From contig JACPWC010000118.1 of the NCBI GenBank assembly GCA_016197225.1, forward strand, positions 1-57,482: 57,482 nt of DNA, written 5' to 3'. Each line of letters starts with the position of its first letter. Position 1 is the stretch's first letter. This DNA is from Chloroflexota bacterium (GTDB lineage: Bacteria; Chloroflexota; Anaerolineae; Anaerolineales; VGOW01). Positions 15,344 through 25,180 of this stretch are shown here, one piece after another. The position numbers were made by a program, and so were the translations under genes. The notes below the pieces were generated by a model, which did no database searches, was not told the origin of the DNA, and was given only the letters and a program-made list of their open reading frames with translations.

Positions 15344-17128
15344 TTACTTCTGTATCTCTCTCAAATAAGCCACAATGTTATACAAATCCTGCTCACTCAG
15401 CGCCGGGTTGCCGCCGTTAGGCGGCATGGTCACGCCGGTCGTGTTCCGTGGGTCGTTTTCGGGGCGGCCTACTTTGATGAACTCAACCAGTTCTTTGTCG
15501 CTCTTGCCCGCCACCCATTCACTTGTCGTCAAATCCTTGCCCAGGCTAGGCACGCCCTCGCCGGTCGGGCCGTGGCAGGCCGAGCAGGTAGCCGCGAACA
15601 AAGCTTGACCTTTGGTTGCGTCGCCGGGCAGGAGCGGAGCGGGCGTGGCGCTTGCGGCTGGAACCGCTTCATTTGCCACCGGGCCAATGTGGTAAATGGT
15701 GTTACTGCTGAAGCTGGCAACGTACAGGCCGCCGTCAGGTGAATTGAGCAAGGCCGACGGACCGAGAATGCCGCTGATGAAGAGCCGGCTTGCGCCCACA
15801 AAGTGTTCAGAATCAATGCGAAACACGCGCACGCTGTGAATCTCGTTTCGCGCCCACAGCGACACAAACAATTGCCCTTTGTATTTTGTCGGAAAGGCAT
15901 CGCCGGCATAAAAATCGATCCCGGCTGGGGCGGAGTGATCGACAAACGTTACCACCGGCGGCTGTGTGCCGGAGTCCTGCGGCGGGATTCCGAAGTAATT
16001 CGGGAAGCCGTAATCCTTGCCTTCGACGATGTAGTTCAACTCTTCCGGCACGTCAATCTTGTTGGAGCAGTCGTCCACCTGGGTGGCGGTGTCAATGCAC
16101 CCCGACGAGCCGTTGTCAATGGCAAAGAAGCCGCCGCCCGGCGCCGGGATGATGCCAAATGGATTGCGCAGGCCGGTGGCATACACTTTGAGATCGGAGC
16201 CGTCGGGATTCACCGACAGGATGCGGGCGGCCAGCGGATGCGTTTCGGGGCGGTGATCGGTGGTGCTGCCGACGCCGATGTATAAACGACCGTCCGGCCC
16301 GAACGTCAGCCCGTTGCTTTGATGAAAGGCGTATTCTTCGCCGGGGAAGCCGTCAACGATCACCTGCGACTCGTCGGCGACTCCATCGCCGTTGGTGTCT
16401 TTGAGCAACACCAGCTTGTCAATCTCCGTCACGTAGAGTCCGGCTTCACTCCAGGCCAGGCCTTCAGGTTGCTTGAGGCCGCTGGCGAACTCGGCCACCG
16501 AGTCGGCGGCCCCGTTAAGGTCGTCGTCCCGCATGATCCAGATCGAGCCGCCGATCCCGGCCACGTACAATTCGTTGTCCGGCCCAATCTCCAGCGCCGT
16601 CGGTTGTTGAACGACTGCATTCTCGAACACCTGAATCGGAATATTGTCGGCGACGACGATTTTCTCGATAGGCGTGGCAACGACGCTAACCTCGTCGAGG
16701 TCGGGAGTAAATGTGGTGAGGTACAACCCGTAACCCACGACGGCGAACAACACGGCAATGCTGAACGAAGCCGTCAGCCCGAAGCGCAAATCGGAGTTGC
16801 CGCCAAGCCGCTCCGCCAGTTTGTAAACGCCAAAGGCAAGGGCGGCGGCAACGATGGCGCTTGCCGCTATCAGCCCAACGCCGATCGCCAGTTCGCGCAT
16901 GGGCAGGTTGATGTAAGCCCGGCGCGCCGCCGTGCTGGCGGTGAGATACAAAAAGATTCCGGTCCCGGCCAGCGCCGTGACGAATACCAAAACGCCGGAG
17001 ACTCGCGCCCGCTTTTTGCCGAAACGATAAACAGCCGCCAGCATCCACGCCGCCGCAAAGAACAAAAGGCTCAGGCCGAAGAGGCTGGCGATGAGCGGGG
17101 CCAATAAAGAAAGTAGTCGTTGCATCAT
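15344..17128 (-). CDS. Membrane-anchored glucose/sorbosone dehydrogenase-like propeller with C-terminal cytochrome c
   Basis: Three-part protein, 594 residues. Residues 1-150 hold about four transmembrane helices. Residues about 160-470 form a six-bladed propeller of the soluble aldose (PQQ) dehydrogenase/sorbosone dehydrogenase type (ALEIGPDNELYVAGIGGSIW, TGLRNPFGI, LNYIVEGKDYGFPNYFG). Residues about 505-594 are a class I cytochrome c with the haem motif CSACH and an axial Met in GVTMPPNGG. It should oxidise sugars or alcohols outside the membrane and pass electrons to its own haem. Its ATG is four bases after the helicase stop codon, so it may be read from that operon. Confidence 0.88.
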   Translation of the reverse strand: MMQRLLSLLAPLIASLFGLSLLFFAAAWMLAAVYRFGKKRARVSGVLVFVTALAGTGIFLYLTASTAARRAYINLPMRELAIGVGLIAASAIVAAALAFGVYKLAERLGGNSDLRFGLTASFSIAVLFAVVGYGLYLTTFTPDLDEVSVVATPIEKIVVADNIPIQVFENAVVQQPTALEIGPDNELYVAGIGGSIWIMRDDDLNGAADSVAEFASGLKQPEGLAWSEAGLYVTEIDKLVLLKDTNGDGVADESQVIVDGFPGEEYAFHQSNGLTFGPDGRLYIGVGSTTDHRPETHPLAARILSVNPDGSDLKVYATGLRNPFGIIPAPGGGFFAIDNGSSGCIDTATQVDDCSNKIDVPEELNYIVEGKDYGFPNYFGIPPQDSGTQPPVVTFVDHSAPAGIDFYAGDAFPTKYKGQLFVSLWARNEIHSVRVFRIDSEHFVGASRLFISGILGPSALLNSPDGGLYVASFSSNTIYHIGPVANEAVPAASATPAPLLPGDATKGQALFAATCSACHGPTGEGVPSLGKDLTTSEWVAGKSDKELVEFIKVGRPENDPRNTTGVTMPPNGGNPALSEQDLYNIVAYLREIQK

Positions 17129-17132
17129 TGGA

Positions 17133-19262
17133 TTAGCTTACCATGAGTTGCGCCAGCACCGACTGAGCTTCAGTCATATCAAGCCACGCCTCGGCGGCGT
17201 GGACGCGCAAAAGGGATTCTGGTAGAAACTCGTCGAACTTGCGAGTCTGGATTTCGGCGAGGGGCAGGCCGGCGGCCAGTTCGGCGGCGGTGGGCGGCGA
17301 CTCGCCTAGCCGCCGCAGAGCCGCTCGCAAGTCGCCGTTCACCTTCATCATCCACGGAAACGAAATGAAGTCCACTTCCAGGCCAACGTTCTCCAACATG
17401 GCCCTCAACGTCTGCGCCGCCCGCGTGCCAGTCCAGAGAAAAACGACGCCGTCGCCGAGCACTTGCCGTTCATCCAACTTCAATGCTTTGCTAAACTGTC
17501 GCGCCTCGGCCAGCGCAACCTGCCCCGGCGGCGAAAGATAACCCGGCACAGACTCGCCCAGCAAAATCTCTCGCGCCTTCCGGGCCAGGCGCGGATGAAG
17601 TTCCGGTCCGCCGCTCGGCGCAAACCGGGCCGGCTGTGCGCTGGCGGCTGGCGTGACTAACACTTCCTTTCGCGCCGGAGCAACCTCCGTCACTTCCCAC
17701 ATTTCCCCGGCCAGCCGCAAACACAGCCCCGGCTTCAACCCTGGCGAGTTGCTGATCCGCCCCAACACGCGCTCGCCGTGTCGTACTTCCAATTCTTCTG
17801 CCGACTCAAACACGGCATAGAAATCGCGCGAGCGGGCGACCCTCTCGCCACTCAACCCAAGAATCAAATTGCCATCGGACAATTGTTGAAGGTGATCGAT
17901 CTTCGCCAGATGCTTGAGCAGAGTAGCGTAATCATCCGCGCTCACGCCGGGGAAGACGCTCGACTTCATGAAGAAACCGACCAGGTCACGCGGCGAACTG
18001 CCGTGCCGCTCGACCAGCCGCGAGAGCAACTGCTGATACAACACGTTGTAAGGCCGCGCACTCGCAGTTGGCGGCTCGATCCAACCTTCGGCGAACAATT
18101 CAGACACGGCCAATGCCTTGAGCAGGTTGAACGGGATGCGGTCGTAGGAGGACCGGGCCGACGGCTCGACGGTGTAAACCTGCATAATGCGTTGCGCGCC
18201 GGGGCGGCGGCCACTACGCCCCAGCCGTTGGACGAACGACATCACCGAGTGCGTGCTGTTGACCTGCGCCACCAAATCGAGCCGCCCGATGTCAATGCCC
18301 AACTCCAGGGTGCTGGTGCAAACGACCGAAGCCAGATGATGCTTGTCTTGCATCCGCGCTTCGGCTTCCTCGCGAACTTCCTTGCTGATCGAGCCGTGAT
18401 GCGGCAGGTAGCGCTCTTCGCGCTTGTCGCGTCTGCAAAGCGCATTCAGATCGGCAGTGATCGTTTCAACCTCAGCCCGGCTGTTGCAGAAGATGAGCGT
18501 CTTGCGGTCGCGGGTGAGGGTGTAGAGATCGGCTACCAGTTCGGGCGGGATTTCGTCGGCGGCAAAATGGAGATGGCTGAACTTGATCGAGGCGGCCACA
18601 CCCGGCGGATTGATCAGTTGCACCTGATCCGGTTGAATCGGATTCAGCCAGCGTTTGGCCGCCTCAAAGTCGCCCACTGTCGCCGAAAGGCCGACTCGCC
18701 GGGGGCGGCTTTGGGCGTACTCCGACAATCGCTCCAACTGGCAACGCAACTGCGCGCCGCGATCCGACTCTAAGAATGAGTGAACTTCGTCCACGACGAT
18801 GAAGCGCAGGCCGCCGAACAAGGCCGCCAGCTTGCCGCTCTTGTTGACGAACAGGCTCTCGATGGACTCGGGTGTGATTTGCAAAACGCCGCCAGGGGTT
18901 TCGAGCAGATCGGACTTGCGCGAGGCGGCTACGTCGCCGTGCCAGCGATGAACGGGGATGCCGCCCTGCTGGCAAAGCAATTCGAGCCGCTCGAACTGAT
19001 CGTTGATTAGCGCCTTGAGCGGCCCAACGTACAAGGCGCGCACCGACCCAAACGGCTCGGCGTGAAGGAGGCTGAGGATGGGCAGGAAGGCGGCTTCGGT
19101 CTTGCCGCTGGCCGTGCCGGCGGCGATCAGCACATCGCCGTTGCCGTCGAAGATCGCCTCAATCGCTTCAATTTGAATGGGCCTCAGATCGTCCCAGGCT
19201 TCGGCGTAAACGAACTCGCGGAGGAACGGTGCGAGACGAGAGAAGGGTTGTAATTCACTCAA
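17133..19262 (-). CDS. Lhr-like SF2 DEAD/DEAH-box helicase of the TerB/BrxD-like island
   Basis: Superfamily 2 helicase, 709 residues. Q-motif LRPIQIEAI (27-35), Walker A AGTASGKTE (48-56), DEVH box (158-161), SAT (193-195), and motif VI FVQRLGRSGRRPG are present. After the RecA pair there is a winged-helix-like and Lhr-type C-terminal region but not the full Lhr extension. Helicases of this type accompany BrxD ATPases (as BrxHI in type 2 BREX) and TerB-N/TerB-C proteins. The neighbours here are exactly those, so a joint DNA-processing role is likely. Cytoplasmic. Confidence 0.88.
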   Translation of the reverse strand: MSELQPFSRLAPFLREFVYAEAWDDLRPIQIEAIEAIFDGNGDVLIAAGTASGKTEAAFLPILSLLHAEPFGSVRALYVGPLKALINDQFERLELLCQQGGIPVHRWHGDVAASRKSDLLETPGGVLQITPESIESLFVNKSGKLAALFGGLRFIVVDEVHSFLESDRGAQLRCQLERLSEYAQSRPRRVGLSATVGDFEAAKRWLNPIQPDQVQLINPPGVAASIKFSHLHFAADEIPPELVADLYTLTRDRKTLIFCNSRAEVETITADLNALCRRDKREERYLPHHGSISKEVREEAEARMQDKHHLASVVCTSTLELGIDIGRLDLVAQVNSTHSVMSFVQRLGRSGRRPGAQRIMQVYTVEPSARSSYDRIPFNLLKALAVSELFAEGWIEPPTASARPYNVLYQQLLSRLVERHGSSPRDLVGFFMKSSVFPGVSADDYATLLKHLAKIDHLQQLSDGNLILGLSGERVARSRDFYAVFESAEELEVRHGERVLGRISNSPGLKPGLCLRLAGEMWEVTEVAPARKEVLVTPAASAQPARFAPSGGPELHPRLARKAREILLGESVPGYLSPPGQVALAEARQFSKALKLDERQVLGDGVVFLWTGTRAAQTLRAMLENVGLEVDFISFPWMMKVNGDLRAALRRLGESPPTAAELAAGLPLAEIQTRKFDEFLPESLLRVHAAEAWLDMTEAQSVLAQLMVS

Positions 19263-19286
19263 TTTCTTCTGGTGGGTGTTCGCCCA

Positions 19287-19688
19287 TCAAGTACAGAATC
19301 CGGCGTAAGTTACAACGCCTTCTCGATTCAGTTGAAGCGATTCAACTGTAGCCCGACCAGTTGGCGTCAACCCGATGATCAACGCGAAATCATCGTTCCA
19401 GGCAAAATGATCGCGCCAACGGTGTTGTCGAGGATGGTAGAGCGGGATGTTTTCGCCGCTCACCGGATCGTGGCCCTCGGTTTTGGTGTACTTGTGATTG
19501 TTGCAACCCTGACAGGCGAGCGCCAGGTTGTTGAGAGTAGTTTCGCCACCACGACCGCGAGGCTCAATATGTTCGATGGAGAAAGGCTGGATAGCAAAAC
19601 GCGCCTGACTGCGACAGTATTCGCAACAGCCCCTGGCGCGTTCAAAGACAGTTTGTTTGTGCTGGGCGGAGACCCGCATTTCAGGCAT
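19287..19688 (-). CDS. HNH endonuclease
   Basis: Small nuclease of 133 residues. Zinc-knuckle cysteines are C22 and C25 (GCCEYC) and C59 and C62 (ACQGCNNHK). The catalytic His is H40 in IEHIEPRGRGG, with Asn53/54 and His65 completing the HNH site. The C-terminal 60 residues (DHFAWNDDFALIIGLTPTGR) are typical of a standalone HNH family common in Cyanobacteria and Chloroflexota. It overlaps the upstream partner gene by eight bases, so expression is coupled. Target unknown; it could be part of the neighbouring DNA-processing set or an independent mobile pair. Confidence 0.88.
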   Translation of the reverse strand: MPEMRVSAQHKQTVFERARGCCEYCRSQARFAIQPFSIEHIEPRGRGGETTLNNLALACQGCNNHKYTKTEGHDPVSGENIPLYHPRQHRWRDHFAWNDDFALIIGLTPTGRATVESLQLNREGVVTYAGFCT

Positions 19689-20082
19689 AGGTCGGCGACT
19701 GAATGCCCAGGTCTTTCATCAACACGGTGAGCGTTGTCTGGCGCAGACGCGCCAGTTCCACCATGTATTTAATGCGTTTTGCTTCTATCTTTTCAACCTG
19801 ATCAGTCAGCCGGAGAAGTTCATCGTGTTCATCAACGGTCAGAGTTTCCGCCTGCCGTTTGCCAACCAGTTCATCATGTCGTTTCTGAACATCGCCTGGC
19901 ACGCCCTGATTAATTTTGAGCAAAAGATCGGTTTCGGCAGGCGGCAAGCTGGGGGCCTTGCGTTGCGCTTGCAGAGAGAGCAACTGAAACACGAACTGCT
20001 CTAGTTCGCCAGGACTCAGCTGCCCGGCGGCTTTGAGCAGATCGGCAGACGATAACTGCGCTTCAACTTGAACGGTTGGCAT
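19681..20082 (-). CDS. Small helical protein paired with HNH nuclease
   Basis: Hypothetical protein of 133 residues, charged and almost wholly alpha-helical by composition, with a coiled-coil-like stretch DEHDELLRLTDQVEKIEAKR (residues about 83-102). No catalytic motif is visible. Similar proteins with STDLLKAVEQL-like starts precede HNH genes in many genomes, so it may be a partner, specificity factor or antidote of the nuclease (inference from arrangement). The ribosome binding site AGGAGGTCAAT is strong, and the nuclease start lies within its last codons. Confidence 0.6.
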   Translation of the reverse strand: MPTVQVEAQLSSADLLKAAGQLSPGELEQFVFQLLSLQAQRKAPSLPPAETDLLLKINQGVPGDVQKRHDELVGKRQAETLTVDEHDELLRLTDQVEKIEAKRIKYMVELARLRQTTLTVLMKDLGIQSPTYA

Positions 20083-20191
20083 ATTGACCTCCTGGGGCCA
20101 GACTGGTCAGCACTGGCTTTATTTTAGCCTGATCGCCAGCCGGCGCAATAGACACCTTACCGACGAACAGGGCAACGCCGCTAAGTTGGCT

Positions 20192-20464
20192 TCAGATGCC
20201 GATCCGGTTCAGCCCGTCAATGGCTTGCGCGATGCTGGCCGTCAGCGCCGGATGCGAAAGCTCGAAACGCAACAGGGCCGCGCTGAGCCGCTCGCCGAGC
20301 GAGTGATATTGATGAGCAGAGGCGTCACCCGGGCGGTCAAGCAATTCTTGAATGTCTTTCATCAGGCTTCGCAACAGTTCGCGTTCACCGGCGTCAACGG
20401 TCTGGGCCTGCTGCAATTCGGCGTGAAGCTGCTCCAGCTTTTCGTGAAGTTGTTGTTTGTTCAT
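20192..20464 (-). CDS. DUF4404-family small protein
   Basis: Protein of 90 residues, helical, with KQQLHEKLEQLHAELQQ at the start and LLRSLMKDIQELLDRPG in the middle, matching the DUF4404 family. The function of this family is unknown. It lies 27 bases from the ATPase gene upstream, so it is likely co-transcribed with the TerB/ATPase pair. The 109-base gap on its other side holds no recognisable feature except the strong ribosome binding site of the HNH partner gene. Confidence 0.75.
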   Translation of the reverse strand: MNKQQLHEKLEQLHAELQQAQTVDAGERELLRSLMKDIQELLDRPGDASAHQYHSLGERLSAALLRFELSHPALTASIAQAIDGLNRIGI

Positions 20465-20491
20465 AGCCTGACAGCCTTTCTTGAAAAAATT

Positions 20492-21829
20492 TCACTGCAC
20501 TTTGAAATCGGTAAATCGATCCAGCGGGTCGCCGTCGCTTGCCGGGGCGGCTTGTTCCGCCAGTGTCGTTGTCACCGGCGTGGGCAACGTTCCCAAAATC
20601 TCCTGCCACGTCTTGTCGGGATACTGCCCCAGCAGGTTGAGCAGGTTGACGAACTCGCGCACCAGGTCGCGCGGCGTGGCAAACTCTTTGGCCCCGATTC
20701 GCTTCAGCGACTCTTCCATATACTTCACAATGGCCTCGTCTTCCAGCCCTTTGCTGTTCGCCGCGCTCTCGCGGTGAATGTCGCGCACCTTTTGCAGAAG
20801 CACGTAAATCTCCTCGGCGGTCAACGGCGGCAGAGAGAGCACCGGCCCGGAGAAGTCGCGCAGGTCGTCGGTGGCAAAGCGGCTCCCGGCCAACCGCGTG
20901 CGCAGAGCTTCGTAGCTGAACAGCCCGCGCCGCGCATCTTCGAGAAACTCCGGCGTGCCGCTGAACATGAAGCCGACGTAACCAGCCCGCCCCTGCAAGC
21001 AGTCGTTGACGACGCTGAGAATCTTTTCGTAGTTGGCATTGCGGGCCACACTGTGCGTAATCTTGTAAAGGTTCACCGCCTCGTCCAGGCAGATGAGCAA
21101 ACCGGCGTAACCCACGTCGTGGGCGAAGCGGGCGATGACCTTGAGATAGTCGTAAAAATTGTCGTCGTCAATAATCGAACGAACGCCCAGCGCCTCGCGG
21201 GCCTCGGTCTTGGTGCTAAACTCACCCCTCAGCCAGCGGATGGCATTGCTCTTCAAGTCGTCGTTGTTCTCGACGTAGCCCTGATAATACTTGCTCACCA
21301 CCGTGCCGAAGTCGAAACCGTGCACCAGCTCGTGCATGTCGTTGACGATGGCGACGATGCTGGCCTGCACTGTCGCCGCAAACTCCGGGGAACCCGCCGA
21401 CAAATTCTGTTTGGCCGCTACCTCGGCCTGAACGTTTGAAATCCAGCGCTCGATGATGGCCGGCAGGGCGTTGCCGTCGGGCCGGGTCTGCGTCGAAAGG
21501 TTCTTCATCAGTTCGCGGTAGAGGGCCAGCGCCTGCCCGCCCGATCCTTGCAGGCGGCGCTCCGGCGAAAAGTCGGCATCGGCTACCACGAACTTGTTGT
21601 CGAAAGCGTTGGCGCGCGCTAACTGCAACAAAAAGCTCTTGCCACTGCCGAACCGCCCGACGATGAACCGCACCGTCGCCCCGCCTTCGCGAATGTGCTC
21701 CAGGTCGCCCTTGAGGGCCGTGATTTCGCGCAAGCGCCCGACGGCGATGTGGCGCAAACCGGCGCGCGGCACCACGCCCGCGCCCAGCGCATTCAAAACT
21801 GCAACCGCTTCACGTTTTGGAATCGGCAT
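20492..21829 (-). CDS. BrxC/BrxD-type ATP-binding protein (former DUF2791)
   Basis: P-loop ATPase, 445 residues. Walker A GRFGSGKSFLLQLA is at about residues 58-71 and Walker B GLLICLDEAVNLYKI near 245. The N-terminal PKREAVAVLNALGAGVVPR and the later FSGTPEFLEDARRGLFSY match the BREX ATP-binding family seen as BrxD in type 2 BREX and in TerB-linked operons. In known systems it works with an SF2 helicase. PglX methylase and PglZ, which define BREX, are absent from the window. Probably cytoplasmic, acting on DNA. The 99-base upstream gap contains a palindromic repeat. Confidence 0.88.
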   Translation of the reverse strand: MPIPKREAVAVLNALGAGVVPRAGLRHIAVGRLREITALKGDLEHIREGGATVRFIVGRFGSGKSFLLQLARANAFDNKFVVADADFSPERRLQGSGGQALALYRELMKNLSTQTRPDGNALPAIIERWISNVQAEVAAKQNLSAGSPEFAATVQASIVAIVNDMHELVHGFDFGTVVSKYYQGYVENNDDLKSNAIRWLRGEFSTKTEAREALGVRSIIDDDNFYDYLKVIARFAHDVGYAGLLICLDEAVNLYKITHSVARNANYEKILSVVNDCLQGRAGYVGFMFSGTPEFLEDARRGLFSYEALRTRLAGSRFATDDLRDFSGPVLSLPPLTAEEIYVLLQKVRDIHRESAANSKGLEDEAIVKYMEESLKRIGAKEFATPRDLVREFVNLLNLLGQYPDKTWQEILGTLPTPVTTTLAEQAAPASDGDPLDRFTDFKVQ

Positions 21830-21852
21830 TTTGTTTATCCTGAGACAGTTTT

Positions 21853-21930
21853 ACCACGAAGACACCAAGACACAAGGGCACAAAGGAAAACAGCTTTCTT
21901 GGTGTCTTTGGGCCTTCGAGCTTTGTGTTT
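21853..21930. repeat. Palindromic word repeat (CACGAAGACACCAAGA type)
   Basis: Tandem words (AAGACACCAAGACACAAGG) are followed by their complement (TCTTGGTGTCTT at 21897-21908). It lies between the TerB-N/TerB-C gene stop and the ATPase start, and carries on into the TerB-C stop region. Related words occur at 48536. Confidence 0.85.
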
Positions 21931-23641
21931 AGCTGAAAAAGTGTTGGCGAAGAGACGGCAGATCATCTTCCTCAACTGCCCATTGCTCGCCATCAAGATA
22001 CAGCGGTGGATGGCCCAGCGCCTCGGTTGCCTTCTCGTTGAGCGAGTCCAGGACGGCGTTGCCCATGAGGTGAAAGGGCCGGGCCGCCGACTCGATCTCG
22101 GATTCGGCCAGCGCGCCGCGCCCGGCAAACAACTTGAGCAGGGCCCCCTCTGCCGGGGTGAGTTGGTTCAGCAGTTGCCCCCACAGGCCGTCGGCGGCTT
22201 CTGCTTTTGTTGGCGGCGTCTCGCCGATCACAATTTGCAGTTCATCCAAAAAATCTTCGGCCAGAGTCAGCGCGCCATCGGCTTCAACATAAATCAATCG
22301 GTCGCCCAACACTGGCAAAGCCTGCTCGTTCACCCGCTCGATGACGACGTTTGGCAGTTGAGCCTGTTGCGCCAATTGCTCAACCGTTGAAACGGATTTG
22401 TCGAAAATGGCGGTGACGGTTGCCCGGCCCGCGCCCTCCAGCGCCGCCCACAGTTGGCGCACTTCGGCCAAATCGGTATAGGCGGCTTCGGGCGAGTCCA
22501 ACGTTGCTTCTTCAGGCGGCGGCTCCAACATTGCGCCCACGCGCTCGCTCTCAAGATGCAGTGCGGCCACGCGCGACTGGTCAATCTTGATCTGCAAAGG
22601 TCTCTCGACAGGCGCAAAGGCTTTTTCAAGCGCGGCGGCTATACCTGAGTCAAGCGTGATGCCAGAGAGGCGATGCCACACTCCGGCCTGCGCCCGCAAA
22701 ATATTTTCGGCATGTTTCACGACTGAGGTGAGGTGCTCTTTCAGCGCCGCGCTGTCTTCGTAGTTCCGGCTGGCCCCGAAGTCAACCATCATCGGGTATG
22801 CGTAGCCGACAAGGGCATCTTCAAACACGCGCTTGAAGTTTGGCCTGGCGTCGGTTTCGGTGAATTTTTCCAGCAACGATTGGCCGTTGGCCTTTTGCCA
22901 GTAATCTGCCGCCACGCGAATCGCTTTTTCGTAAGCCTGGTCGAGCCGGCCATCGGTATTGTGAGCCAGATAAAACTTGTTGCGCGGGCGGTAGTCGGTG
23001 AGCGAGGCCCAGAGTGTGTAAGGCATCTCGTTTGATTTTCGGCGGGCGACGAAGCGCTCGATGAGGGCGTTTGCCACCGATTTGGGCGGCTGAATGTTCA
23101 TGGCGGCAAACTTCTCCCACCAGTCGAGGGCCGCCGCCGGACCGACTTTTACCGCCAGCAAATCGCCGTGCCACTCCGGCAGAACGTCGTCAAGCTCAGG
23201 ATGCCCTTTGCGATACGCTTCCCACACTGACCGCAAACGGCCAGCCGCTTGATTGGGATCGGTTAGTTCGACAAGGTTTAACAACTCGTAAGCATAAAGG
23301 CCGATGTAGCCGCGCTCGGTTGGCAAATAAGTTCCGCGCCGCACCTGTGAGCGCCAGTAGAAATACCAGTTGGACTGCGCCGCGCTCAACTGCCACCAAG
23401 TGAGCAGATAAGGCGGGTGAGGTGCAGGGTTGCACGGCCTGCCCTCGCGCTCGTGGAAACGTTTCGCATCGTCGAGAAACGCGGTTGCGTCGGGGTAGCC
23501 GCCGCTGGCCGCTCCTGCCGTTTTCTTTGCGGGGCGGGCGACGGGCGGCGGTGACGGCGTCCCCGTGAGTTGACGGATGAGCCAGACGAGTCCATCGAAT
23601 ATCAAAGTCAAACAGCCGCGTGGCCGGCGTCGCTTCGCCAC
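21929..23641 (-). CDS. TerB-N/TerB-C domain protein
   Basis: Protein of 570 residues starting with GTG. A hydrophobic patch at about 11-25 may be a membrane-associated segment. TerB-N spans about 75-220 (NWYFYWRSQVRRGTYLPTER then GLYAYELLNL). A long helical linker follows, and the TerB-C-like region is about 430-569 (VEADGALTLAEDFLDELQ, ALGHPPLYLDGEQWAVEEDD). Proteins with these two domains occur with BrxD-like ATPases and SF2 helicases and were proposed from comparative genomics to belong to DNA-processing or stress systems. Its GTG shares one base with the stop of the upstream oxidoreductase gene (TAGTG). Confidence 0.85.
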   Translation of the reverse strand: MAKRRRPRGCLTLIFDGLVWLIRQLTGTPSPPPVARPAKKTAGAASGGYPDATAFLDDAKRFHEREGRPCNPAPHPPYLLTWWQLSAAQSNWYFYWRSQVRRGTYLPTERGYIGLYAYELLNLVELTDPNQAAGRLRSVWEAYRKGHPELDDVLPEWHGDLLAVKVGPAAALDWWEKFAAMNIQPPKSVANALIERFVARRKSNEMPYTLWASLTDYRPRNKFYLAHNTDGRLDQAYEKAIRVAADYWQKANGQSLLEKFTETDARPNFKRVFEDALVGYAYPMMVDFGASRNYEDSAALKEHLTSVVKHAENILRAQAGVWHRLSGITLDSGIAAALEKAFAPVERPLQIKIDQSRVAALHLESERVGAMLEPPPEEATLDSPEAAYTDLAEVRQLWAALEGAGRATVTAIFDKSVSTVEQLAQQAQLPNVVIERVNEQALPVLGDRLIYVEADGALTLAEDFLDELQIVIGETPPTKAEAADGLWGQLLNQLTPAEGALLKLFAGRGALAESEIESAARPFHLMGNAVLDSLNEKATEALGHPPLYLDGEQWAVEEDDLPSLRQHFFS

Positions 23642-24561
23642 TACTTCACCTGAGGCAGAACGCTTTGCGCCATCGCCGCCAGGCCATCGAGATCATCCAG
23701 GTCGAGCCACTGCAACATGATGCGCCCGACTCCGGCCTCGGCGAACTTGCCAAGCTGATCCACAACCTCAGACGCAGTGCCGAAAACCACGCCGTGTTCG
23801 CGCAGTTTGGCCGGGTCGCGCGCGCCGAGTTTGCGTTGAAGCGTTGCCTCGTCTTTGCCGAAATAACAGCCGTGCATGAGCGAGCGGCGCACACTGTTTG
23901 GCTGGCGATGGTTGGCCGCCAACAACTCGTCCAGCATTTTGTTGAGTTCGACGAACTTTTGCGGCGTGAGGTAGACCGCGTTCCACTCGGAAGCGTAGCG
24001 GGCGGCGAGCGGCAGGGTGAGCTTGCGCCCGTTGCCGCCGATGAGGATGGGCGGCCCGCCGGGCCGGGCAGGGCGTGGCAGGAGCACCGCCTCTTTCAGA
24101 TGATAAAACTTGCCGTCGAAGTCGAGCGGTGACTCGTTTTGAAGCAAGTGCGAGATGATCTTCAGGCCTTCTTCGAATCGCTCGAAGCGTCCCGCGATGT
24201 TGAGCAAGTCCCAGCCGTAATTGGTGTGCTCGCGCTCCTGCCAGCCTGCGCCCAGGCCAAGCGTCAGCCGCCCGCCTGAAAGATCGTCAACGGCGCTTGC
24301 CATGCGGGCCGTTATCGTCGGCTGGCGAAACGAGACGGGCGAGACCAGCGGCCCAAATTCGATACGCCTGGTGTGGCTCGCCAGCCACGTCAGCGAGACC
24401 CACAGTTCGAGCGACTCAATGTCAGGCGGGTTGGAGTTGGTGTAATGGTCGGAGCGGTAGAGGCCGCTGAAGCCGAGCATTTCGACGGCGGCGGCGATCT
24501 TCTGCCAGCGCGGCCAGTTCAACCCATTCTGGCCTTCGATCATGATGGCGACTTCGAGCAT
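23641..24561 (-). CDS. LLM-class F420/FMN-dependent oxidoreductase
   Basis: Luciferase-like TIM-barrel oxidoreductase of 306 residues. It starts MLEVAIMIEGQNGLNWPRW, has GLYRSDHY, LASHTRRIEFGPLVSPVSFR, and the typical LGLGAGWQEREH at about 110-121. TIGR-type F420-dependent enzymes share this layout; flavin use cannot be excluded. The start follows the repeat region 24577-24705 and a longer frame through the repeats is rejected. The stop overlaps the TerB-N/TerB-C GTG by one base, so the two are coupled. Substrate unknown; it may be an accidental leader gene of the island. Confidence 0.88.
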   Translation of the reverse strand: MLEVAIMIEGQNGLNWPRWQKIAAAVEMLGFSGLYRSDHYTNSNPPDIESLELWVSLTWLASHTRRIEFGPLVSPVSFRQPTITARMASAVDDLSGGRLTLGLGAGWQEREHTNYGWDLLNIAGRFERFEEGLKIISHLLQNESPLDFDGKFYHLKEAVLLPRPARPGGPPILIGGNGRKLTLPLAARYASEWNAVYLTPQKFVELNKMLDELLAANHRQPNSVRRSLMHGCYFGKDEATLQRKLGARDPAKLREHGVVFGTASEVVDQLGKFAEAGVGRIMLQWLDLDDLDGLAAMAQSVLPQVK

Positions 24562-24576
24562 GGATGGTCTCCTTCG

Positions 24577-24705
24577 GAACGCTGATGAACGCAGAGCCTT
24601 TTCAAAGAGTTCGTAACTACACAGGCCTGGTTTCATCCGCAGATTTTCGCAGATTAGCACAGATTACTAAAACAAATCTGCGGCAATCTGTGTAAATCTG
24701 CGGAT
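24577..24705. repeat. Two abutting word repeats (GAACGCTGATGAACGC; ATCCGCAGATT)
   Basis: The left part (24577-24600) carries GAACGCTGATGAACGCAGA, nearly the same as 49986. The right part (24635-24705) is a long palindrome of ATCCGCAGATT words and their complement, the same family as 36681. Together they fill most of the 199-base gap upstream of the oxidoreductase start; I see nothing else there. Confidence 0.9.
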
Positions 24706-24760
24706 AAACAATGGCGTTTTTCAAGCGTATGCCTGGGCAATTACAAGCGATCGGCGAAAA

Positions 24761-25180
24761 TCAGCGCGACGCGTCAGCGCGCTTCGCGTCTGCGTTCTCA
24801 ATATATGCCTCGGCTTCAATCTCCACCAGCATCGCCGAGTCAATCAACCGTCTCACCTCGACCATCGCCGTCGCCGGGCGGATGTCGCCAAAGAACTCGC
24901 CGTGCGCTTTTGCCACTTTCTCCCACTCGTCAATGTTCGTCACATACATCCGGGTGCGAATCACGTCGGTCAGGCCGGCTCCGGCTTTGGTCAGCGCGGC
25001 TTCGATGTTCTTCAATGTTTGCACAGTTTGGGCGTAAGCGTCGTCAACGCCGACGATGTCCCCGTTCGCGTCGGTGGCCGTCGTGCCGGAGACGTGAACG
25101 TGCGGCCCGATGCGAACGGCGCGCGAGTAACCGGCAATGGATTCCCATTTTGCGCCGCTGGCGATGTTTTGACGTTGCAT
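24761..25180 (-). CDS. RidA-family (YjgF/UK114) protein
   Basis: Enamine/imine deaminase family, 139 residues. It has [44 protein letters not shown] with the conserved Arg, and [23 protein letters not shown]. RidA hydrolyses reactive 2-aminoacrylate. The last dozen residues ([12 protein letters not shown]) extend past the family end and are encoded by a GCGCTTCGCGTCTGCGTT repeat word that also supplies the stop codon. GAGGAG precedes the ATG. Confidence 0.88.
24764..24796. repeat. Repeat word encoding the RidA tail
   Basis: Contains GCGCTTCGCGTCTGCGTTC, identical over that stretch to the intergenic element at 50049. Read on the minus strand it encodes the last residues of RidA. Confidence 0.8.

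Follow-up and report, generated by a model that had tools for sequence, protein, structure and literature searches.

The stretch of DNA analysed here (the window; 57,482 nucleotides of a Chloroflexota genome) carries a predicted Shango anti-phage system, whose operon is interrupted by what appears to be an independent two-gene cassette encoding a small helical protein and an HNH nuclease. We place the probability of this reading, which comprises both the identity of the core genes and the separate nature of the cassette, at about 0.87. An ORF check recovered every gene listed in the preliminary description at its position, all on the minus strand, and the Pfam scores of the encoded proteins, with the exception of a 133-aa helical protein, are far beyond chance. 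In the region 17000-24900 no sigma-70-like sites were found, compared with 2.0 in shuffled sequences, an uninformative difference.

Three genes, arranged in the order sngA-sngB-sngC on one strand, form the core of the locus. The first of them (sngA; 21929-23641) encodes a 570-aa protein with TerB_N and TerB_C domains (Pfam E values of 4e-20 and 1.5e-18, respectively; 192.6 bits with the PADLOC model SngA). The second (sngB; 20492-21829) encodes a 445-aa ORC/Cdc6-like AAA+ ATPase of the BrxC_BrxD family (PF10923, 534 bits; PADLOC SngB, 593.6 bits), in which alignment revealed the motifs GRFGSGKSF (GxxGSGKS) and LDEAVNLY (LDE). The third (sngC; 17133-19262) encodes a 709-aa Lhr-like SF2 helicase with DEAD and Helicase_C domains (PADLOC SngC, 741 bits), whose nearest NCBIfam models are Lhr-like, though it scores far below their cut-offs. 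Its translation contains GTASGKT, DEVH, SAT and QRLGRSGR, which we take to be intact helicase motifs. For all three proteins the respective Shango models were the best in PADLOC. The preliminary description had seen here a compact DNA-processing or anti-phage module composed of a TerB_N/TerB_C protein, a BrxD-like ATPase and an Lhr-like helicase; the module stands and, judged by homology, is Shango (SngABC), a published anti-phage system. As such, the core is an ordinary, fresh member of an already known system.

The original E. coli report of Shango is said to be that of Millman in 2022. According to the available text of a later study, Shango of Pseudomonas consists of TerB, ATPase and helicase genes and, in P. 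aeruginosa PAO1, modestly reduces the plating of many, but not all, phages (10-100 fold; PMC10250203); the same text cites an E. coli report of its anti-phage activity. The earlier view that the function of this gene set is little described is not supported, since its effect on phages is published (PMC10250203, as far as the text was available). The helicase SngC has been grouped with BrxHI, DruE and DpdJ into a clade of defence helicases that is potentially distinct, in the portion of the source at hand (PMC12278908). A literature search, which cannot prove that none exists, yielded no mechanistic study of Shango. We know of no phage assay of a Chloroflexota Shango, within a limited search of the literature. 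The locus places a known, mechanistically open system in an environmental Chloroflexota genome.

SngB and SngC are homologous to BrxD and BrxHI, so the same genes might be read as what remains of a type 2 BREX (Pgl) locus that was reduced or has degenerated and kept this pair. Both proteins, however, score much higher as SngB (593.6 bits vs. 172.5 for BrxD) and SngC (741 vs. 466 for BrxHI), and SngA is not named among the type 2 BREX components in the available part of the relevant source (PMC12839542). Moreover, the PglZ domain (PF08665) had 0 matches in the approximately 98% complete genome to which the window belongs (G000), in agreement with the preliminary description of a module devoid of PglZ; a control search matched in 2 of 14 genomes. 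On the PADLOC scores and the missing PglZ we rejected a BREX remnant, regarding it as extremely improbable.

A profile scan of GTDB genomes gave more than 80 SngB loci, and the best 80, from many phyla, were analysed. Homologues of SngA and SngC were present in 71 and 72 of these best 80 loci, respectively, and both flanked SngB in 64 of them. To these is to be added L105, the SngA of which was missed by the position rule of the script. SngC is missing from eight loci, five of which have less than 1 kb of sequence downstream; in the other three (L077, L081 and L117) at least 3 kb is available. In L060 and L096, sngB is followed by a tandem of two ORFs for SngC-like helicases. In four others (L072, L078, L090 and L091) the SngA frames span 1231 to 1509 codons between stops, compared with 570 aa in the window, and possibly include long N-terminal extensions.

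The occurrence of the system is patchy: an SngB match was found in 3 of 61 genomes, i.e., the window's own and 2 of 60 relatives. The nearest relatives, G014 (SngB identity of 65%) and L056, whose DNA is 97% identical to that of G014, have the A-B-C arrangement without inserts. SngB was also matched by 692 of 72,556 plasmid records, some of which may encode BrxD. On all six plasmids that were read, the hosts of which are bacteria of four genera and one archaeon, the A-B-C order was found, and sngB either overlaps sngC or is separated from it by no more than 10 nt. Relatives of SngB (43-47% identity) are encoded on eight viral contigs of IMG/VR (L185-L192). The 80 loci of the scan, the six plasmids and the two relatives make up the 88 other SngB loci used for comparison below; many of them are cut by contig ends, and they are not all independent, L049 being nearly identical to L056.

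The initial discussion of TerB domains was in the context of tellurite and stress genes. This early link, together with one archaeal Shango adjoining genes for a metallophosphoesterase, an SMC-family ATPase and NurA, would suit a module serving DNA repair or a stress response (Ter-type) instead of defence against phages. We consider such a role very unlikely for the window locus, given the patchy occurrence and the plasmid-borne SngB-like genes described above (BrxD possibly counted among the latter), and given that homologous systems act against phages by experiment, according to the available text of PMC10250203.

The Shango operon of the window is not contiguous: sngA and sngB are separated by 99 nt, and sngB and sngC by 1229 nt. 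In 65 of 72 other loci the distance between the SngB stop and a possible SngC start (chosen mechanically) is at most 55 nt, with a 4-base overlap in 41 of the 72. The sngB-sngC gap exceeds 100 nt in the remaining 7, and sngA and sngB are 322 nt apart in L042. Contiguity is usual in Shango, not defining. In the window, a usually tight operon is split twice: a repeat separates sngA from sngB, and a DUF4404 gene plus the cassette separate sngB from sngC. The repeat (21830-21928) is palindromic and dispersed, a 104-base query giving at least 34 matches in its own genome, itself included, when 40 of 60 candidates were scored. Another, imperfect inverted repeat (24632-24708; 34-nt arms, 82% complementary) lies at the start of the oxidoreductase gene upstream of sngA. 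Elsewhere, two genes with ABC transporter-like translations, as judged by reading, occur between sngB and sngC (L094:10481-13672), and a long sngB-sngC gap of another locus (L131:10344-12780) holds only unassigned minus-strand ORFs.

Splitting at both gene junctions might mean that this Shango locus no longer works. The repeat, the 1229-nt gap and a frame shift in the HNH gene (see below) all point that way, and two separate insertions combined with the frame-shifted nuclease gene could mark a decaying locus. Against this, the three core ORFs are all open, with intact ATPase and helicase motifs, and genes also occur at the sngB-sngC junction of other Shango loci such as L094, so this junction tolerates passengers. 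Loss of function is on balance rather unlikely, and we retain the reading of a Shango system with insertions.

The first insert encountered downstream of sngB is a DUF4404 gene (20192-20464, minus strand; PF14357, 74.9 bits). No homologue of its product was detected in the 88 other SngB loci (phmmer, single sequence, E 1e-5). Only one other genome, G014, contains both DUF4404 and Shango, located at 2.59 and 3.19 Mb, respectively, and thus approximately 0.6 Mb apart. Because of this distance and the absence of matches in the 88 loci, DUF4404 was rejected as a Shango component, and its gene is probably a passenger. In G004 it is situated between peptidase-like and methyltransferase-like genes, as judged from their translations, and the literature searched did not mention DUF4404. 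On the other side of the core lies a gene of a luciferase-like (LLM) oxidoreductase (23641-24660, minus strand; PF00296, TIGR03560), also without homologues in the 88 other SngB loci (phmmer, E 1e-5); the gene is therefore seen as adjoining the system on the chromosome and not as belonging to it. Close homologues (67-72%) are encoded in 3 of 4 genomes of the same genus. The gene order around these homologues varies, which prevented a reconstruction of the insertion site.

The second insert (19265-20093, minus strand) was delimited by its DNA similarity to a stand-alone copy of the cassette, L051 (blastn; 66% over 833 columns), and ends at the sngC start. It contains the gene of a 133-aa protein (19681-20082, minus strand) located directly upstream of the HNH nuclease gene (19287-19688, minus strand; Pfam HNH, 48.3 bits), which it overlaps by 8 nt. 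The 133-aa partner protein is helical (single-sequence model, pLDDT 76) and had no Pfam match above its cut-off and no PADLOC match at E 0.01. Ribbon-helix-helix Pfam matches in its family are weak (Arc in 2 of 32 members and FitA-like in 2 of 32; best E 0.001). When 38 distinct HNH genes were sampled, non-exhaustively and after three duplicate loci and one distant HNH had been set aside, a partner-family ORF was directly upstream of 35, including that of the window. The exceptions comprise (i) a Rippkaea plasmid (L047), where the two genes are separated by an IS4-family transposase gene, (ii) L207, where the HNH gene is at the edge of the stretch and the partner was found beyond it, and (iii) L208, with an HNH gene lacking a recognisable partner. 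Remote partners are to be viewed with more caution, because these very loci were used to iterate the partner profile.

HNH-partner sites were found in Chloroflexota genomes and on cyanobacterial plasmids, on several of which the partner gene is near integrase, partition or cas1-cas2 genes. Of 400 genomes of the order, at least 22 encode members of the partner family (E 1e-10); that of the window is among them, with at least four copies, and G006 has at least ten; as ten candidates were scored per genome, these copy numbers are lower bounds. The partner was not found in phage and viral records. It stands without an HNH gene in 4 of 16 newly fetched loci (L263:6005-7032, L265:5998-6429, L266:5725-6063 and L267:5602-6024), in the first of which the subsequent genes resemble an AbrB-type antitoxin and a PIN toxin, judging from their translations.

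Profile searches (E 0.001) detected neither the partner nor the HNH protein in the 88 other SngB loci. The suggestion of the preliminary description that a nuclease in the middle belongs to the module is not supported, nor is membership of DUF4404, which likewise had no match in these loci. We regard the partner and HNH genes as a separate two-gene cassette, independent of Shango to judge by their distribution. The layout of two abutting or overlapping genes, present in multiple copies, suggests that it may be a hitherto undescribed toxin-antitoxin-like pair; a literature search, which cannot prove that no report exists, found nothing on it. Most likely, the HNH pair is a passenger working by itself, toxin-antitoxin-like or selfish.

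The HNH protein of the window keeps the cysteine, H and N residues conserved in its family, as revealed by alignment, and lacks the C-terminal tail common to the family, its gene being frame-shifted near the 3' end. A simple tail pattern is present in 31 of 38 members, and most of those that fail to match it, apart from the window's, have a variant of it. The tail can be read in another frame (5.7 bits with the profile; E 0.0024 for three frames), the stop of which falls at the sngC start. In this draft genome of 126 contigs, the frame shift may be real or an assembly error; intact copies of the gene exist elsewhere, and the nuclease encoded in the window may be impaired. All 34 aligned HNH members, the window's among them, match PtuB models at E 0.001. 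The pair does not have the make-up of Septu, the gene next to HNH encoding the 133-aa helical protein and not a PtuA ATPase.

Another possibility is that the HNH protein and its partner are effectors, the locus then being a Shango variant with a dedicated nuclease. The pair indeed shares the strand of sngB and sngC and lies between them, with its DNA reaching to the sngC start, and an auxiliary effector role in BREX and related operons has been proposed for HNH nucleases (PMC12839542, in its available part). A further argument comes from genome G205 (L210:2341-10115), where the same cassette lies between hmaA and hmaB, on the same strand as these genes (PADLOC HmaA, 1652 bits; HmaB, 1243 bits); no HmaC was identified in the part that was read. 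This Hma copy is the strongest result against a pure passenger reading, and the cassette may be associated with defence operons. Its other surroundings are different. Pfam matches were obtained for 21 of 30 flanking proteins scanned, which, apart from HmaA and HmaB, belong mostly to metabolic or transport families; the families include a protein methyltransferase, a P-type ATPase, a molybdopterin enzyme, glycosyltransferases, RuvB, transaldolase and dehydrogenases. Among 20 proteins near 11 cassette sites other than the window (out of roughly 45 sites), only HmaA and HmaB were matched by PADLOC. One Hma case in 11 sites is suggestive at most of a link to defence, and the window itself was chosen for its context. 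Given also the loss of the conserved tail and the 88 SngB loci without the cassette, a dedicated nuclease seems unlikely, and the lead of a built-in HNH effector, which had been misleading, is weakened.

A further, equally unlikely idea is that the cassette represents a hitherto undescribed killing pair, dispersed among Chloroflexota and Cyanobacteriota and taken up as a back-up by two or more mutually unrelated, helicase-based defence operons (Shango in the window and Hma in G205). The upstream helical, sometimes ribbon-helix-helix-like protein would act as an inhibitor restraining the PtuB-like HNH nuclease, which would be released as a back-up suicide nuclease once the primary system is attacked.

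Returning to the Shango core, an AlphaFold2 model of SngA (34-sequence alignment; mean pLDDT 86.8, pTM 0.57) shows an N-terminal helical array followed by two tandem winged-helix domains, matched at about residues 382-477 and 482-570. A Foldseek search gave no match at E 0.001 or better; SngA resembles common winged-helix arrangements (Z up to 9.1), in a search that probed little beyond winged helices. No nuclease domain was recognised in SngA, SngB or SngC, and a missing structure match is no proof of absence. In type 2 BREX, BrxD is proposed to load BrxHI on DNA, according to the available text of PMC12839542. By analogy, we tentatively suggest, as a scheme with somewhat less than even chances, that SngA, forming a helical scaffold and binding DNA through its two winged-helix domains, would hold or recognise foreign DNA, on which the ORC/Cdc6-like ATPase SngB would load the SngC helicase. 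The latter, as an ATP-driven translocase, would disrupt phage DNA replication or open the DNA to other nucleases. Since no nuclease domain was recognised in the core proteins, any cutting of the DNA would probably be performed by a host enzyme.

Among known systems, the locus is closest to Shango, with which it shares three homologous proteins, their order, strand and domain types; it differs in the DUF4404 gene and partner-HNH cassette between sngB and sngC and in the dispersed repeat between sngA and sngB. With the BrxD-BrxHI pair of type 2 BREX it has in common an ORC/Cdc6-like ATPase paired with an Lhr-like helicase, whereas the lower BREX scores, the lack of a PglZ match in the genome and the presence of SngA instead set it apart. 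The HNH protein of the window belongs to the same HNH group as PtuB, the HNH effector of Septu and retron Ec78, but its partner is a small helical protein and not the PtuA ATPase. Hma, a DUF499-centred, BREX-related system, carries in G205 a partner-HNH cassette of the identical type between two of its core genes, although this core, with the SNF2 helicase HmaA and the adenine methylase HmaB, is unrelated to that of Shango. The analysis has brought to light a widespread partner-HNH pair, which can be compared in two natural settings, within Shango and within Hma.
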